Part shown: positions 31,723-39,200 of the stretch, piece by piece
Layout: every line of letters begins with the position of its first letter
How positions within the stretch are numbered: position 1 is the first letter of the stretch
NCBI GenBank assembly: GCA_023212695.1
Contig: JALCCG010000060.1
Location: 1-64,000 of the forward strand
Direction of reading: 5' to 3'
Length of the DNA: 64,000 nucleotides
Source: Sporisorium sorghi
Lineage: Eukaryota > Basidiomycota > Ustilaginomycetes > Ustilaginales > Ustilaginaceae
Translations under genes and position numbers: made by a program
The notes under the pieces: model-generated
Seen by the model: only the letters and a program-made list of their open reading frames with translations
What the model was told of the DNA's origin: nothing
Database searches by the model: none

Positions 31723-34458
31723 TTAACGGCGACTATACTTACTCGAGATGCTCCTGCTATCTTCTTCTGCCCTCGACGACGACGGGACACGTTCGGAGTC
31801 AAGCTCCAGCAGAGCTCGCGTAGCATCCTGCAGGGTGTGAGACGAGACAGCTAATGCCTTTAGTCTGTCAATCACATGCTCGTTCTGTGGAGAATTGGGA
31901 TCGAGCAGCGTCCGACAGATGAGCTGCAGATTGCTTGCTTCGAGACGAACAGCTGCGACGGTCTCTACTTCGACGAGCTTTGACAGAGTGGCCTGCAGCC
32001 CTTCCAGGCCTGAGCCGAGTCGCTCGGACGACTCTTGAGACCCGAAAAGGCCGACGACGAGCGATATGGTCCGAGCTGTCATGCCAAGGACTGCCTCCCG
32101 GGCGGCCACTGCAGACGGCTGACCCCCAGGCAATGTCGAGAGGACGCTGCAGAGACCGCGTGAGCCCAGCAGCTCTGTGTCGACCCACTTGACTAATGCT
32201 TCTGCAGTTGCACTTGCTACTTGCAGTTCACCGACCCGGAGATCGACGAGGAGTAGGCAGCACAGATAGAGGCCGTTCTGAGACTCGGACGGACGCTCCA
32301 AGTCAGCAGTCACCCTGGTCATGAGTCGCTGCAGCAGCTGAATCCGACCAGCGACCGGTAGCGAGCTGATGCCGATTAAGGTCTGTGTCGACCAAGCGTC
32401 TCGACTGGCAGACGAGATGCGTGCGAAGCTGCCAAACAGGTCGAGCGCGATTGCACTGGCCAGAGCCTCTTCGAGAGCTGCCGTCGCTTCCTCCGACGAT
32501 GTTGGCGCGCCAAGTTCGGCCTGTACAGCGAACAGAGCCACTTCGACAAGACGTCTTGGTAGAGCGAGCAATGCATCGTCCGGTTGGTTGCGAGCCTTGG
32601 TACTCGCAGAGATCGCTTCGTCGACAGCGCTTTGAAGTTGCGAGCGCAACAGTGCAGTGAGACCAGAGTCAACCCGATGCAGCAGCGCCAGTGCACGCTT
32701 GCGTATGGACGCATCGGGATCGGCGAGCAGCGCCATGAGCTGTGCCATCTCGGCTTCGGTGATGTCCAGCGGCGAGGACGACGGAACTGGATGTTCTTCC
32801 TCCGCCGTGGACTGGGCAGCGTTTGGCTCTGCCTTGGCTTGCGCCCACCCAAGTGGGAGGAGTGCGTCCAGGAGGACGATTGCAGCAGTCTTGCGATTCG
32901 GGTTGGTGCTGTGCAGCTGAGATTTGACGTGCGCCGAGAGCGAGGCCCACAACGCTGCAAGTTCTCCGTCACGGTTGCCAGCTGATTGGGATGTTGTAGA
33001 TGATGCTGGCGTTCCTGTTGTCGATGTGGTAGTGAGATAGAGGGCCCCGATGCACCGAGCGGCCGAGACACAAAGAGCCAATGCTGCCGCCTTGCCCTGA
33101 GACGCCACGTGATAGATCCGAAGCACCGCTTTCAGCATCTCCCTCTTGACCCCAATATCAAAAGGAGACGACGATTCGACCGCACACGCAACCGACTTTG
33201 TCAGAGACGAAAGGCACGCATCCATGAGCCAGGGCGCGTACGCACCGTGATAGTCATGCTCCGGCTGCAAAGCCGACCTCTGTCGTGCTGCCGTACGCGC
33301 ACGAAGGCCCTCTGTGCGTCCCACGACGGCTGCTGCCAGACGCTGCTGCTGCAGTGCCTGCACCTCCATGTGCATGGGAGCCCACCTGGTTGCCTGCAGC
33401 ACTTCAATCGCATGGCAAGCTGCCTCGTGGCTGGTGATGACGCCCACAGCCCGTGCATGATCTACGATCCTGATGCACGCACGAAGACCACTAGGGCTCG
33501 AGTCGACACGCCTCTCCATCTCGGCTAGGATCATCCCGTGATTCTCGTCCGGGTTGGAACCAGGGGAGAAGGCGTACGTCGAGGCTAGAGTGAGGCGCAC
33601 GATTGTGAGAGCTGCATCCAGCATCTCTGCTTGTCCATCGCTGTCCGTCGATTCGCTTGCGTCGATCGATGCACACGAGAGCATAGCATTGAGCGTCATG
33701 GAGCGGATCGAAGAGTCCGGATGCCGCGTGAGCTCCACCAGCGTAGAGGCAAGAGAGGGCAGCACGGCTGGTCCGCGAGGTGTACCGGTTACAAGAGACT
33801 TGAGCGAAGCCAAAGCTCGAAAGCTAGTCCAGCTTGAGGAGTCGGATGGAGGGAATGCGTGTTTGGAAGGCGAAGAACGCGAGGAAGATCGAGAGCGTGA
33901 CGGAGATCGAGAACGCTTTTCCGTGTCACTAATGGACACATGGTGCTGAGCATCTTCCGAAGCAGTCGAGAGATTCGATCGAAAGGTGTTGAGAAGGAGC
34001 AATGAGGATGAATCGTCGTTTGCGGGATACGAGGTTCTAGATGAGCTGACAGTGGAAGTGGGATCCGTCTCCCGCTTGTCGCTTTGTGGAAGGAGATACG
34101 GGAGCAACTGGTATGCAATGAGCAGATCCTTCCAGCTCGTTGCTAAGCTGAGCAGTTGCAAGGTTGGCAAAAGTGCAAAGCTGACATCAATGGTAGTGGG
34201 TCGATCGGCTAGTGATGCGTTCGAGGCAGGATAGTGCTGAAGGCAGTGAAGCAGCGTGACAAGCGCTGAAGTGAGCTTAGACACATCCGCCGAAAAGGAG
34301 CGAGAAGCAAGCTGCTTCCGAAGTTGAGCCACTGTGTCGAGGATGATGGCGTCCTGCTGTTGAGGGGTATCCGCTTCCTCGAGCTCTTTGGCCAGCTTGA
34401 AGTGGATTCGAGAGGCGCCGCTCTCGAGCAAGGTGAACGAGTCGCTTGAGCGCGACAT
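31723..34458 (-). CDS. Adaptin-like large subunit of an AP complex (AP-4 epsilon-like)
   Basis: Intronless, 911 aa. It is a HEAT/ARM-repeat trunk protein. The segments that identify the adaptin family are an N-terminal amphipathic helix region (KELEEADTPQQQDAIILDTV), GAYAPWLMDACLSSL (compare APWLQIQLLRLL in AP subunits), TNPNRKTAAIVLLDALLP and DPDASIRKRALALLHRV. Such subunits build the core of coat complexes that select cargo at Golgi or endosome membranes. Poly-Ser insertions interrupt the trunk and the C-terminal ear domain seems absent, so assignment to AP-4 rather than AP-1 or AP-2 is tentative. The stop lies 22 bases before the Nudix ATG on the same strand, and a perfect GTAAGT donor straddles the last codons. 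Confidence 0.65.
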   Translation of the reverse strand: MSRSSDSFTLLESGASRIHFKLAKELEEADTPQQQDAIILDTVAQLRKQLASRSFSADVSKLTSALVTLLHCLQHYPASNASLADRPTTIDVSFALLPTLQLLSLATSWKDLLIAYQLLPYLLPQSDKRETDPTSTVSSSRTSYPANDDSSSLLLLNTFRSNLSTASEDAQHHVSISDTEKRSRSPSRSRSSSRSSPSKHAFPPSDSSSWTSFRALASLKSLVTGTPRGPAVLPSLASTLVELTRHPDSSIRSMTLNAMLSCASIDASESTDSDGQAEMLDAALTIVRLTLASTYAFSPGSNPDENHGMILAEMERRVDSSPSGLRACIRIVDHARAVGVITSHEAACHAIEVLQATRWAPMHMEVQALQQQRLAAAVVGRTEGLRARTAARQRSALQPEHDYHGAYAPWLMDACLSSLTKSVACAVESSSPFDIGVKREMLKAVLRIYHVASQGKAAALALCVSAARCIGALYLTTTSTTGTPASSTTSQSAGNRDGELAALWASLSAHVKSQLHSTNPNRKTAAIVLLDALLPLGWAQAKAEPNAAQSTAEEEHPVPSSSPLDITEAEMAQLMALLADPDASIRKRALALLHRVDSGLTALLRSQLQSAVDEAISASTKARNQPDDALLALPRRLVEVALFAVQAELGAPTSSEEATAALEEALASAIALDLFGSFARISSASRDAWSTQTLIGISSLPVAGRIQLLQRLMTRVTADLERPSESQNGLYLCCLLLVDLRVGELQVASATAEALVKWVDTELLGSRGLCSVLSTLPGGQPSAVAAREAVLGMTARTISLVVGLFGSQESSERLGSGLEGLQATLSKLVEVETVAAVRLEASNLQLICRTLLDPNSPQNEHVIDRLKALAVSSHTLQDATRALLELDSERVPSSSRAEEDSRSISSKYSRR

Positions 34459-34838
34459 GACGGCGACGAGGTAACGATGGCGTTGACAGCTGGTTTACTT
34501 AAAAGCTGCGAGCAATGCACTTGCCGTGCCTTTGTTTGCCTGTCGGCGATGTTGGATGGCATGATGTTTGCTGCACGCACAACAACAGCAGCGATTCAGG
34601 GTCCAACAGGCCAAATGCAGCCTTACGACCGGCTAGATCAACGGAATGCTTTGACAGCCGTAATTACATAATCAGTTGTCAGCAGAATGGCCTCACTTTC
34701 GCTTTTCCGCTTCCAACGGCGTCGAAAGAAGCTTTTTGTCTCTTGCACGACCAACTCTCCTTCCGCACCTTGACATCCTCTCTCAGCCGATCGACATCAT
34801 CCCTGGATTCAGTCGCCCAAACGAGGCAGCTGAAAGGC
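34459..34838. other. Divergent promoter between adaptin-like and MCMBP-PLPBP genes
   Basis: About 380-530 bases, depending on which start is used on the right, serve both genes. The right-hand reading frame stays open back to 34515. That part has no conserved match to MCMBP and is taken as leader. Confidence 0.5.
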
Positions 34839-34985
34839 ATGCGCATTAGGCTCAACCTCTTTGTCGCCGCTATCTTTTGTACAACCTGTTCAACATCCAC
34901 CCTCCGGAACTTTGCCTTATCAGCTGCAAGTCGCTCGCGCCTCGCCCATCGATTCAGCACATCTTCTTCCAGAAACTCTCGCAAA

Positions 34986-37835
34986 ATGGTACCCGACACC
35001 GACTTCTCCGCAGCGCTCACCAAGCCGCTCGACGTCGTCCAGCAGATCTACAGCGATGCGCAGGACAAGTCGCCAGCCAACATCACCAAGCTGGTAGAAA
35101 CGCACTTTCGTCAGGTGTTTGCTTCTCCGGACGCCAGCGCAAAGATCCCGTCCCTTTCTGCGGGTAACATCGGCGAGCTACTGCCTAGCTCAAATGCGAA
35201 TGCGGCAAGCACACATCGTTTGGTCCGCTTTCGTGCGATGATCCAGGACACGGGTCTGGGGACCGAGGTGTTCCTTGCCAAGCACCAGCATGAAGGGCAC
35301 ACGTTTACCGGTCTGTACGGCGGCGAGGCAAGCGTTCCAAGCTCACACGATTCGTCGGATGCAAGTGGGCATGACGAGCTTGATCATCAGAATCTTGCGG
35401 AGAGGACGGTGATGTACGCCGTGTCGGTGCCCGGTCAGACTGCCTGGGCAGCCAAAGCGAATCGCGAATCCGCTGGTGCACCAACTGCCGACGCTTCAGT
35501 CGACCAGCTCTCCAGCGCCACCTCATCCATCTCCATCACCGACCCCCAATCGCCGCAGAAAATCCAAGAGGTGCGCGAGCGTATCCGCAAAGCCGTCGCA
35601 AAGGGCAAGCAGCTCGGCTCGGCAGGCAAAGAGCCGCGTCTGGTGGCCATCTCGAAACTGCACCCACCCTCTGCCATCCTCGCTGCGCACAAGCAAGTCG
35701 GACAGCTGCACTTTGGCGAGAACTACGTGCAGGAGATGGTGGACAAGGCCAAGGTGCTTCCGCGCGAGATCCGGTGGCACTTTGTCGGCGGGCTGCAGAG
35801 CAACAAGGGCAAGCTGCTGGCGTCGATTCCGAATCTGTATCTGCTCGAGACGCTCGACTCGATCAAGGCGGCCAATGTGCTGCAGAAGGCGCTTGCGTCG
35901 CCGGATGCTGCGAAGCGCGACGAGCCGCTGCGTGTGTACTTGCAGGTCAACACGAGTGGTGAGGATGCCAAGAGCGGTCTGCCGCCCGTTCTGTCAGAGG
36001 ACGCGGAGCAGGCCAAGGACAGCGAGCTGCTCCAGCTGGCTGTTCATGTCATCACAAAGTGCCCGAACCTGCGCCTGCGCGGCGTGATGACCATTGGCGC
36101 AGCCTCCAACAGCTCAAGCGCCGACGCGGATGCAGCCAAGAGCGTCGACGAGATCGTCTCTGCCAACCCGGACTTTGAAAAGCTCATCCGCACACGCACC
36201 AACCTCGTCAAACTCCTCCGCGCGAGCGATGAAATCCGCAAGACAGACCAGCCGCACATCAAGGACGCATACGCAGACCTGCTCGAGGGCACCGACGCAA
36301 ACGGCGGTCTGGAGCTCAGCATGGGCATGTCGGCCGACATGGACGTTGCCACCATGGCTGGCAGCGACAATGTCCGTGTCGGCACCGGCTGCTTCGGCCG
36401 CCGCCCTGGCACGCGAGAGGAGGCCATGAACGGCATGAAACGCGAACTTGAAGTGGGGCCCGAGGCGGCGGCTGCCGAGTTGCGAGGCCAGCGCGAGTCG
36501 CAGAACAGCACGACTACCTCGAGCTTGCCGCGTGCTTACCTTGCCAAATCTCCTCTGCCAGAGACTCCGCACGTTGGTGGTTTGCTGAAGTTGTACGATC
36601 TGGACGCAGCGGAAAAGTTCAAGACGACCGAGCTGATCGAAGTGGTCGGAATCCTGGATACGGCTGGGCTGCCTCAGGCCGAGTGGCAGGACACGGGCTC
36701 TGCTGCTGCTGGGTCCTCCGCCGAGTCTGCGCAGGTGCCGTGCGTTCACGCGATCTACGCTGCTCCCGCCGAACTGGATTCGCTTGGAGCAGAGAGCTCC
36801 ACCGACGCATCTTCCAGTTCAAACCTCCTCTCGCGCTCGGCGGATCGACAAGCGCTGATTGACTTCCTCGCCGGTGCACTGGGCGGCGACAAGCTAGCCG
36901 CCGAACTCGTGCTCCTAGCCACGATCGCGCGCATCCACGTGCGTCGCGCCAACCTCTGCCTGGGTGCTCTCACGCTCAACATCTCCAACTTTGCCGCCCC
37001 CTCTTCGCCAGCAGCGCAGACACAGCTCTCGCGCCGACTGGAGCAGCTCCTCCCCGCCGTGGTGGATGTATCCATGGACCTGGCTACACTCAACGACCAC
37101 CGCAAGACTCTGTACCCGAAAAGCGCTGGCGAGGGCACGGGTCTCGAAGCGGGCCGACTGCAGCTCGTCAACGGCACCACGATCGTCGTCAACGAAGGCG
37201 CAATGGGCGAGGGCCAGCTCAAAGATACGGGCATCCGCAACATCAAGGCGCTCTCGTCGGTGCTCGAGGCGCACAAGCTGCCGTACGCGTTCCCCTACTC
37301 GGAGTTTGAGTTCGATACGGATCTCAATGCTGTGATACTCAGTCAGGGCAAGAGCTTTTTGCCGTTCGATATTCAGTGTCCGCTGCAGCCTGAGGGCGCT
37401 GCGGATCTGTATGCGGGTGCGGTTGCTGAGGTGGAGGAGGCGCAGTTGGAGGCGTGGAGGAGGGCACTGCTGCACGCGCGCAGTTTGGGGACCGCCAAGG
37501 CGTTCGAGATCCCCGAGAGCGTCAGCGAGCATATCCAGCAAGAGTTTGTGCGGGAGCGGAGAATGGAGCAGGAGGAGGCCAAGGACGCGCACGGCGGCAC
37601 AGCCGCTAAGACGGAAGGCGGTCTTGGGCAGGAGGATCTGCTAAGGAGGATGGCCATCGTCCGCCTGCTGGCGCTGTCGCATGGTGAGAGCAGTCTGTCG
37701 ATCGACATGTGGAACAAGGCGGTCGAGCTGGATCGGGTGCTGGCCCAGCGTGTAGCTGCGACGACACAGCAAAGCCAGCCTCGCTCGCAGCCAGGTGCTG
37801 GACATGCGTCGAGCACGGCGGGCGTCTCTCGCTGA
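34986..37835 (+). CDS. MCM-binding protein (MCMBP/ETG1) with an embedded PLP-homeostasis (YggS/PLPBP) domain
   Basis: One uninterrupted frame, 949 aa from this ATG. Residues 1-165 match the MCMBP N-terminus: LTKPLDVVQQIYSD, RLVRFRAMIQDTG and AERTVMYAVSVPGQTAW. Residues about 192-475 are a complete PLPBP barrel: LVAISK with PLP lysine K224, HFGENYVQE, WHFVGGLQSNK, VYLQVNTSGE, GVMTIGA, LSMGMSADM, and NVRVGTGCFGRR. From about 513 the MCMBP C-terminal part resumes: GGLLKLYDLD, RRANLCLGALTLNISNF, LVNGTTIVVNEGAMGEGQL, and LNAVILSQGKSFLPFDI. MCMBP binds MCM2-7 helicase subunits in the nucleus; PLPBP buffers pyridoxal phosphate and binds it without known catalysis. The 34986 start gives the expected MCMBP beginning. 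The frame also has an ATG at 34839, adding 49 residues like a mitochondrial presequence. Domain identities are firm, the start is not. Confidence 0.88.
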   Translation: MVPDTDFSAALTKPLDVVQQIYSDAQDKSPANITKLVETHFRQVFASPDASAKIPSLSAGNIGELLPSSNANAASTHRLVRFRAMIQDTGLGTEVFLAKHQHEGHTFTGLYGGEASVPSSHDSSDASGHDELDHQNLAERTVMYAVSVPGQTAWAAKANRESAGAPTADASVDQLSSATSSISITDPQSPQKIQEVRERIRKAVAKGKQLGSAGKEPRLVAISKLHPPSAILAAHKQVGQLHFGENYVQEMVDKAKVLPREIRWHFVGGLQSNKGKLLASIPNLYLLETLDSIKAANVLQKALASPDAAKRDEPLRVYLQVNTSGEDAKSGLPPVLSEDAEQAKDSELLQLAVHVITKCPNLRLRGVMTIGAASNSSSADADAAKSVDEIVSANPDFEKLIRTRTNLVKLLRASDEIRKTDQPHIKDAYADLLEGTDANGGLELSMGMSADMDVATMAGSDNVRVGTGCFGRRPGTREEAMNGMKRELEVGPEAAAAELRGQRESQNSTTTSSLPRAYLAKSPLPETPHVGGLLKLYDLDAAEKFKTTELIEVVGILDTAGLPQAEWQDTGSAAAGSSAESAQVPCVHAIYAAPAELDSLGAESSTDASSSSNLLSRSADRQALIDFLAGALGGDKLAAELVLLATIARIHVRRANLCLGALTLNISNFAAPSSPAAQTQLSRRLEQLLPAVVDVSMDLATLNDHRKTLYPKSAGEGTGLEAGRLQLVNGTTIVVNEGAMGEGQLKDTGIRNIKALSSVLEAHKLPYAFPYSEFEFDTDLNAVILSQGKSFLPFDIQCPLQPEGAADLYAGAVAEVEEAQLEAWRRALLHARSLGTAKAFEIPESVSEHIQQEFVRERRMEQEEAKDAHGGTAAKTEGGLGQEDLLRRMAIVRLLALSHGESSLSIDMWNKAVELDRVLAQRVAATTQQSQPRSQPGAGHASSTAGVSR

Positions 37836-37885: not shown

Positions 37886-38539
37886 TTACGAGGACGAATT
37901 GAACTTGGCGTTGGAAAAGTCAATGTTGGGGTTAGCCGCGGCGAGTTTCGCGAGCATCTCCTGCTGTTGGATCTGATCGGAGGTGGGTTTGTTCATGGCC
38001 TTTTGGCGGTTGTCGAACATCATCTTTTCCACCATCGCCCTGCGTTAGATGTAAAGAGAGTTAGCAAGATTCGTAAGATATCGCATGTGTCATCGAGCGA
38101 AAACTCACCTTGTCTCGGGATCCAGATCGCTGAGCTTCGAATTCTCAGGCACAATCTTGGTCGTATCAATCTTCGGATGGTGCGTAACGACGTTAGGCCA
38201 CCACTCGTTCTTGTTCATCTTCTCGAGCTGGATCTCGACCGTGTTGGCATCCTCGATCGTCCACGTGCTGTCTTCCTCCTTGATGTCCTTCGCGAGCTCT
38301 CCCTCGAGGATCGCATCTTTGCCCTTGAGCGCTACCTTGATCTTGCGCTTCTTGAGCTCGACGGTGAGGTCGCGTGCCTTGGTGCCCTGGGGGACGGGGA
38401 CGGTGATTTCGACGATATCGAGCTGCTGCTTCCAGGTGTAGGGGAGGCTGGCTTGCTCGGCTGCTTCGCGAGCGCGTTCCGCCTGATCATGCTGCTTTTG
38501 CTGCTCGGGGGTGAGCGCTTCGTATTCTTCGGGTGACAT
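37886..38539 (-). CDS. nudC: Nuclear movement protein NudC (CS/p23 domain)
   Basis: Two exons, 38539-38109 and 38039-37886, 194 aa. The 69-base intron has a GTGAGT donor, a GCTAAC branch and an ACGCAG acceptor; splicing joins DPETR to AMVEKMMFDNRQ. The CS domain (about residues 33-125) starts at YTWKQQLDIVEITVPVP and includes the conserved WTIED and WWPNV segments. The C-terminal helix has the family's MVEKMMFDNRQKA motif. NudC stabilises dynein/LIS1 pathway proteins with Hsp90 and is needed for nuclear migration in hyphae. The long N-terminal coiled coil of animal NudC is absent, as in other fungi. The gene is convergent with the MCMBP-PLPBP gene; stop codons are about 50 bases apart. The leader has a GGA/GAG-rich repeat. 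Confidence 0.92.
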
Positions 38540-39200
38540 GTTGGAGGTTTGCTGGTGTTGTGTGTTGGTGAGGAGGAGGAGGAGGAGGAGGAGGGGGAAG
38601 AAGTTTCTCGAGTTCGTTCTTCGTTGCGTTTCTCCACCTTTTGTTTTCTTTCCCGTGATCCGAACTTTTGATTTTTCGACAATGTTACATCGAATGTTGC
38701 TTAGTGTGAAGGCTTTTTTTCGGCCAAATCCGCAAAAGCAGGACAAATTCGGAAATCCCGCCCTCAAATGCCCGATAAACGCACGGACAGCAGCGGCAGA
38801 AGCGGAAGCGGCACGGGAGCGCTCTTCTTTGCTTTCAACCGGCCATTCTTGCCAAAACTGCTGCTGAGCTGAGTCGTCCCCGCATTGCTTGGATCAACTC
38901 GACTGATGCAGCTCGCTCAAAGTCCGGACCGATCTCGCCCTTCGACCCTTTCCCACCCACCCACCTTGACTGGCAACTCGATTCTAAGGTCGTTTGTAGG
39001 GTCTTCGTCCCTCCTTCCCTTCTTCTTCTCTCCCGAACACATTCGATCGTGAGTCGACCGGCCTTCCCTTGAAGTAGATCACGATCGAACGGTATCTAGA
39101 AGCACGCAAAGAGTTCCACCTCGATAGAGCACACAAGACACAACGCTCAATCTGCTCTCTAGACCCTTTCTTTCGGTTCATCTTGGGCTGACGCATCACC
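38540..39200. other. Divergent promoter between NudC and PFK-2/FBPase-2 genes
   Basis: About 660 bases. A purine-rich GAG/GGA array at 38570-38593 lies in the NudC leader. No TATA box is evident and no additional gene is seen. Confidence 0.5.
38570..38593. repeat. GAG trinucleotide repeat in the NudC 5' leader
   Basis: Eight near-perfect AGG/GAG units, pyrimidine-rich on the sense (minus) strand. Confidence 0.85.

Follow-up and report, generated by a model that had tools for sequence, protein, structure and literature searches.

The locus considered here raises the question of how one reading frame comes to encode two proteins of separate families. It lies in a 64,000-nucleotide stretch of Sporisorium sorghi DNA (assembly GCA_023212695.1, contig JALCCG010000060.1, positions 1 to 64,000), here called the window, and it begins and ends as MCMBP (PF09739), for which we take ETG1 and Mcb1 to be other names. 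Between the two halves stands a protein of the pyridoxal 5'-phosphate (PLP) homeostasis family PLPBP/YggS/PROSC (COG0325, TIGR00044), to which yeast YBL036C and E. coli YggS belong. PLPBP is described in an excerpt of PMC9605639 as a single-domain, mainly monomeric protein with no known enzymatic activity, whereas here it is nested in another protein. A complete PLPBP inside MCMBP had been predicted from the letters of the DNA, and the prediction is borne out by an open frame, an MCM_bind match in two parts with Ala_racemase_N between them, and a match to TIGR00044. The parts of the gene are as follows.

34986..37835, plus strand: fused MCMBP/PLPBP frame of 949 aa (protein P0001), with the conserved start M-[VI]-P-[DE]-T-[DE]-F
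34992..35483, plus strand: N-terminal part of MCMBP, equivalent to residues 5-182 of the unfused Tilletiaria anomala MCMBP
35484..35531, plus strand: variable linker A before the insert, of low identity, bounds approximate
35532..36455, plus strand: complete PLPBP/YggS domain with its C-terminal helix
35655..35657, plus strand: codon AAA of K224, assigned as the PLP lysine
36456..36539, plus strand: variable linker B after the insert, of low identity, bounds approximate
36540..37763, plus strand: C-terminal part of MCMBP, equivalent to residues 191-579 of Tilletiaria MCMBP at 46% identity (PF09739 positions 167-576)

No stop codon interrupts this plus-strand frame from 34515 to 37835, and both MCMBP/PLPBP junctions run through open. 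MCM_bind (PF09739) matches the protein in two stretches with a total of 305 bits against a cut-off of 25.6, and the halves score 50.6 and 258.3 bits singly in a genome search; on the translated DNA, positions 3-121 of the model align to 35112-35495. Ala_racemase_N falls between both stretches with 34.9 bits (cut-off 24.1), and the YggS family model TIGR00044 of NCBIfam scores 153.7 bits against a curated cut-off of 106.25. Both Pfam families are therefore above cut-off, and the same architecture is found in 18 relatives. By sequence, the nearest solved structures are yeast YBL036C and E. coli YggS, and residues 184-490 form the fold type III barrel expected of PLPBP/YggS. The whole protein is not single-domain in the manner of that family. 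As it holds two Pfam families in one frame, the segment rather than the whole protein is assigned to PLPBP. K224, already named as the PLP lysine in the original prediction, is placed as such by its position in the family motif L-V-A-[VI]-S-K, which we take to be the segment holding the PLP-binding lysine, and it is invariant in all 18 alignment rows (the window and 17 relatives).

The site of the insert can be read from Tilletiaria anomala, a member of the same subphylum, in which MCMBP is unfused (P0151, 585 aa) and PLPBP is free (P0031, 328 aa). Both halves of the host match the MCMBP model and align to P0151, which covers residues 1-158 and, separately, 521-925 of P0001. The difference lies between them, where the same flanking motifs enclose 40 residues in Tilletiaria and 383, PLPBP included, in the window protein. 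The insert thus takes the place of a variable MCMBP linker, as had been proposed, the linker being about 40 residues long in the unfused protein. Free Tilletiaria PLPBP matches 35553-36452 at 64% identity without a stop, and since its residues 21-327 of 328 are aligned, the PLPBP coding sequence is nearly whole, C-terminal helix included. As this helix belongs to PLPBP, the insert is wider than the residues 192-475 first given for it; the nesting holds, while the bounds move to about residues 184-490. Mean pairwise identity across 17 rows (P0020 left out, P0019 outside the alignment) is 0.52 for residues 156-192 and 0.56 for residues 491-520, against 0.85 for residues 193-490. By module it is 0.71 for N-terminal MCMBP, 0.85 for PLPBP (0.94 in its core), 0.77 for C-terminal MCMBP, and 0.54 for the tail. 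The modules are conserved while the linkers and tail drift.

Is the arrangement peculiar to this assembly? A query with the fused protein returned 28 proteins from 7996 scored candidates, comprising 18 MCMBP/PLPBP proteins, nine with ADF-H and PLPBP, and one with MTHFR and PLPBP; no record among the 28 is named Ustilago maydis. Eleven named species are represented among the 18 fused proteins, which include members of Sporisorium, Ustilago, Kalmanozyma, Pseudozyma, Melanopsichium, Testicularia, Thecaphora, and Violaceomyces. At least three orders of Ustilaginomycetes carry the MCMBP fusion, Thecaphora and Violaceomyces being placed by taxonomy look-up in orders other than that of Sporisorium, which we take to be Ustilaginales. 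All 18 related proteins share the start motif, and 16 extend to the MCMBP C-terminal end, with P0019 and P0020 stopping earlier. A separate query with C-terminal MCMBP, with 105 candidates, returned 16 fused proteins and, from Tilletiaria, an unfused one, 17 in all. One relative, P0017 from Testicularia cyperi, begins with a bacteriorhodopsin-like domain before MCMBP/PLPBP and is probably two adjoining genes merged in annotation.

Ordinary MCMBP and PLPBP genes elsewhere in the genome would have spoken against the fused gene as the working copy, and neither was found in six-frame searches, with introns ignored, of the assembly (23.17 Mb in 469 contigs). There is no MCM_bind match in it beyond both halves of the fused gene, and no second fungal-looking PLPBP. 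A search for a free-standing YggS gene gave only two further matches, on contigs C156 and C352, the latter by Ala_racemase_N. The PLPBP-type gene of C156 lies in a tight same-strand cluster with frames that we take to be laccase-domain-like and SepF-like, and the C352 gene adjoins a regulator-like frame; for these reasons both contigs are probably bacterial contamination of the fungal assembly. Contigs of this kind, together with the merged-looking model of P0017, could raise the suspicion that the fusion was itself produced by misassembly or by merged gene models. Since 18 related proteins, from eleven named species among others, have their parts in this same order, chance or assembly error is very unlikely.

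The next question is whether the gene yields one chain or two. The original prediction had allowed for a device that makes two proteins from one gene, with alternative introns removing PLPBP to leave MCMBP, or joining an upstream exon to PLPBP. Beyond that suggestion nothing was found in its support, and a scan for consensus splice sites weakens it. No GTRAGT donor occurs within 34839-37835, where GTRNGT is found only at 35932, 36740, and 36939, in neither linker. The single GTRAG within 34839-36560, at 35959, is inside PLPBP, and branch-like CTRAY sites occur only at 36633 and 36855, both in the C-terminal MCMBP half. No pair of consensus sites frames the insert. From the end of N-terminal MCMBP to the PLPBP core, 13 of the 18 rows, the window included, have no methionine, and neither P0001 nor P0018 contains a 2A-like NPGP motif. 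Since consensus splice sites do not surround the insert and most rows lack a methionine ahead of it, a single polypeptide would be the simplest reading, and a splicing device appears very improbable.

Light on why the two proteins were joined comes from PLPBP in other settings. A query with the PLPBP segment, aimed at proteins of about 164-521 aa, matched 6700 proteins among 7997 scored candidates. Among the best 120 of the 6700, free-standing copies named from the subphylum come from Tilletiaria, Exobasidium, and Ceraceosorus, with partial ones from Microstroma and Jaminaea, and no free copy is named Ustilago or Sporisorium. Taxonomy look-ups covered the subphylum membership of eight species; the remaining named species are presumed to belong to Ustilaginomycotina. 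The same PLPBP clade was also found in three further hosts. The first is ARMT1 (PF01937), which holds PLPBP inside it in P0048 and in P0049, the latter from Malassezia equina, with TIGR00044 scores of 172.2 and 174.5 bits. P0049 resembles the MCMBP fusion in having host sequence on both sides, as residues 230-265 of an unfused ARMT1-like frame of the S. sorghi genome match before PLPBP and residues 278-322 and 455-530 after it. It differs in that the host is a damage-control phosphatase and the site lies inside its domain. The S. sorghi ARMT1-like gene itself (C5:19577-21253) has about 167 extra residues, Ser/Arg-rich by eye, between profile positions 226 and 227, which is elsewhere than the Malassezia insert.

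The second host is twinfilin, in nine proteins (P0021-P0025 and P0027-P0030), of which both named ones are from Microstromatales. BLASTP aligns the first ADF-H domain of P0029, together with what follows it, to the unfused twinfilin frame of S. sorghi at 63% identity over 168 columns and leaves the second ADF-H region unaligned; the best ADF-H matches of P0029 among solved structures are twinfilins. AlphaFold2 (AF2) secondary structure, with motifs identified by eye, places a second ADF-H-like region before PLPBP in the twinfilin-hosted proteins; the structure lists for the P0029 model are taken up by PLPBP-like proteins and others of fold type III. In all nine rows PLPBP is followed by a short tail of basic character, G-F-x-K-P-[KR]-R-P-G. 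A similar tail is seen downstream of the S. sorghi twinfilin in another frame and was taken by eye as a later exon. Here too PLPBP is inside the host frame, although after the second ADF-H-like region and before the short tail. The third host is MTHFR in Tilletia horrida (P0026, one record), where PLPBP is likewise fused to a host enzyme but end-to-end, after its C-terminus. The contigs carrying the S. sorghi twinfilin, ARMT1, and MTHFR matches show no PLPBP match.

A tree was built from 57 of 65 PLPBP domains, with P0035, P0036, P0050, P0051, P0052, P0060, P0099, and P0105 dropped as their boundary motifs were not found. A branch with support of 100/99 separates 46 rows, all named Ustilaginomycotina included, from 11 others. 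The 19 MCMBP-hosted rows lie on one side of one branch (89/78, recovered in 91% of 200 bootstrap trees), the two ARMT1-hosted rows group together (100/99), and the Tilletia horrida row sits on a long branch. The twinfilin-hosted group needs three changes, with the partial rows P0034 (Microstroma) and P0046 (Jaminaea), read as fragments, falling among or beside it. Ten further free-standing rows were placed, all of them away from the MCMBP rows; another four (P0035, P0036, P0050, P0051) are outside the tree. From this tree, PLPBP looks vertically inherited and its four hosts appear to have acquired it separately.

The explanation that we consider probable is in-frame capture, giving one chain with two working modules and PLPBP as a passenger. 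An ancestor of the Ustilaginomycetes would have captured a free PLPBP gene in its MCMBP linker and later lost the copy that stood free. The product of the gene would be a single chain of about 949 aa with two self-contained modules side by side, the MCMBP module presumably still chaperoning MCM subunits and the PLPBP barrel still binding and handing over PLP. What may make the insert tolerable is that a variable linker gave way to it and that PLPBP is a monomeric barrel that would fold alone; its single-domain, mainly monomeric nature, as given in the PMC9605639 excerpt, suits the role of an insert. The partner would not have been picked for its function, and PLPBP would keep its own job in any host. 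This passenger model is favoured since sister groups carry the same domain in a folate enzyme, in a phosphatase of metabolite repair, and in a protein that binds actin.

A different meaning had been attached to the nesting in the original prediction, namely that vitamin B6 status is coupled to replication. If such coupling had been selected, MCMBP would be regulated by the loading of PLP onto the barrel inside it, and the assembly of MCM and the licensing of replication would respond in turn. In its favour stand the invariance of the PLP lysine and of much of the barrel core, and the presence of the nesting in three orders, from Violaceomyces and Thecaphora to Sporisorium. However, PLPBP of this clade has ARMT1, twinfilin, or MTHFR as its host in sister groups, and to our knowledge none of these has a role in replication. 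The variable linkers on both sides also argue against a rigid allosteric link. Coupling is thus unlikely, and what stands of the earlier claim is that the fusion is truly nested and sits at a variable linker, not that B6 and replication are specially tied.

The function of the MCMBP module may not depend on a nuclear localisation signal (NLS) of its own. Two simple NLS patterns gave no match in P0001; in P0018 they picked out a single basic cluster, at residue 259. According to an excerpt of PMC9018068, the NLS of MCMBP is dispensable for hexamer assembly and growth in human cells, so a fused MCMBP that lacks a clear NLS could still work.

Several observations weigh against in-frame capture with independent modules and keep it at probable. 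One methionine is present before the PLPBP core in 5 of the 18 rows, which makes internal initiation possible, and frame continuity in the relatives rests on predicted proteins. The support for a single origin of the MCMBP fusion is moderate (89/78). The AF2 model is poor outside PLPBP, with a mean predicted local distance difference test score of 64.5 and 369 of 949 residues below 50. A Foldseek search with this model found one MCM chain at E 2.7e-4, but with a root-mean-square deviation of 18.3. As the MCMBP parts of the model are poorly resolved, their intact folding is argued from conservation. The maintenance of the nesting across three orders, noted above for coupling, belongs here as well. 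It is the methionine in these five linkers, together with the restriction of the splice scan to consensus sites, that sets the confidence given to a single chain on the one hand and to splicing on the other.

A further question is whether the chain has more than one start, as the frame is open upstream of the conserved methionine.

34839..34985, plus strand: possible N-terminal extension from an in-frame ATG, 49 aa with no D/E and nine R/K

Two addresses could follow from this, with the start at 34986 giving a cytosolic or nuclear protein and that at 34839 adding a mitochondrial presequence by which PLPBP would be delivered there too, a proposal that is compatible with in-frame capture. The extensions of the window, P0012, P0017, P0018, and P0019 are all acid-free (5/5), with 5-9 R/K each, that of P0017 being measured from an upstream methionine chosen by us inside the longer merged model. 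Among 24978 open 49-aa pieces taken from shuffled upstream DNA, 2134 (8.5%) lack acidic residues and 271 (1.1%) combine this with at least nine R/K; when the extension alone is shuffled, the combination is seen in 143 of 7516 open shuffles (from 20000). The 108 open codons just upstream in the same frame (34515-34838) contain eight D/E. This same region also holds several short upstream ATGs in other frames. Similar extensions, each containing a single acidic residue, occur in two of the nine twinfilin-hosted rows, P0022 (from a methionine chosen by us) and P0030. PLPHP of mammals is reported in cytosol and mitochondria in an excerpt of PMC10463200, and part of PMC7214817 describes an N-terminally extended peroxisomal enzyme isoform made from the 5' untranslated region of Ustilago maydis by upstream initiation.

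Against two addresses, the codon use of the extension is unlike that of the body, at -0.41 compared with +0.19 to +0.67 for the body parts, which were the training set; the other frames of the same stretch score -0.59 and -0.31. Its hydrophobic moment does not set it apart either, the extensions ranging from 0.29 to 0.64 and ten ordinary N-termini from 0.34 to 0.75. No extension is recorded for 14 of the 18 fused relatives, 7 of the 9 twinfilin-hosted rows, or the unfused Tilletiaria MCMBP. The evidence is mixed, and the composition of the extension hints at a mitochondrial presequence. Dual addressing is a possibility worth keeping in view, while falling short of probable.

Around the fused gene, the downstream neighbour (38108-38767, minus strand) has a CS domain and is presumably NudC-like. 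The upstream neighbour (31723-34458, minus strand) gave no Pfam match at E 0.01.

No paper describing an MCMBP/PLPBP fusion was found in open-licence PubMed Central (PMC). In databases, both Pfam labels are already attached to the fused proteins, several of which are named PLP homeostasis proteins. This is a warning for annotation, since name transfer gives that label to several MCMBP orthologues. Domain insertion is known as an event; that several unrelated hosts within a single subphylum should capture one conserved fold is unreported as far as open-licence PMC shows. A broader proposal, offered tentatively and still doubtful, is that PLPBP is itinerant in Ustilaginomycotina, with at least four captures of one vertically inherited gene by unrelated housekeeping genes (MCMBP, ARMT1, twinfilin, and MTHFR), three of them flanked on both sides, after which the hosts gained upstream starts that bring the domain to mitochondria as well as the cytosol.

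One PLPBP clade in four unrelated hosts constitutes a natural experiment, in which carrying PLPBP is the trait that the hosts have in common. Such fusions can tell what PLPBP needs, be it a level of expression, a compartment, or no free ends, and they suggest a function without a fixed partner. The linker of MCMBP is marked as a site that tolerates about 340 extra residues. More broadly, the findings suggest that conserved eukaryotic proteins can accept an entire barrel time and again with neither part being lost.

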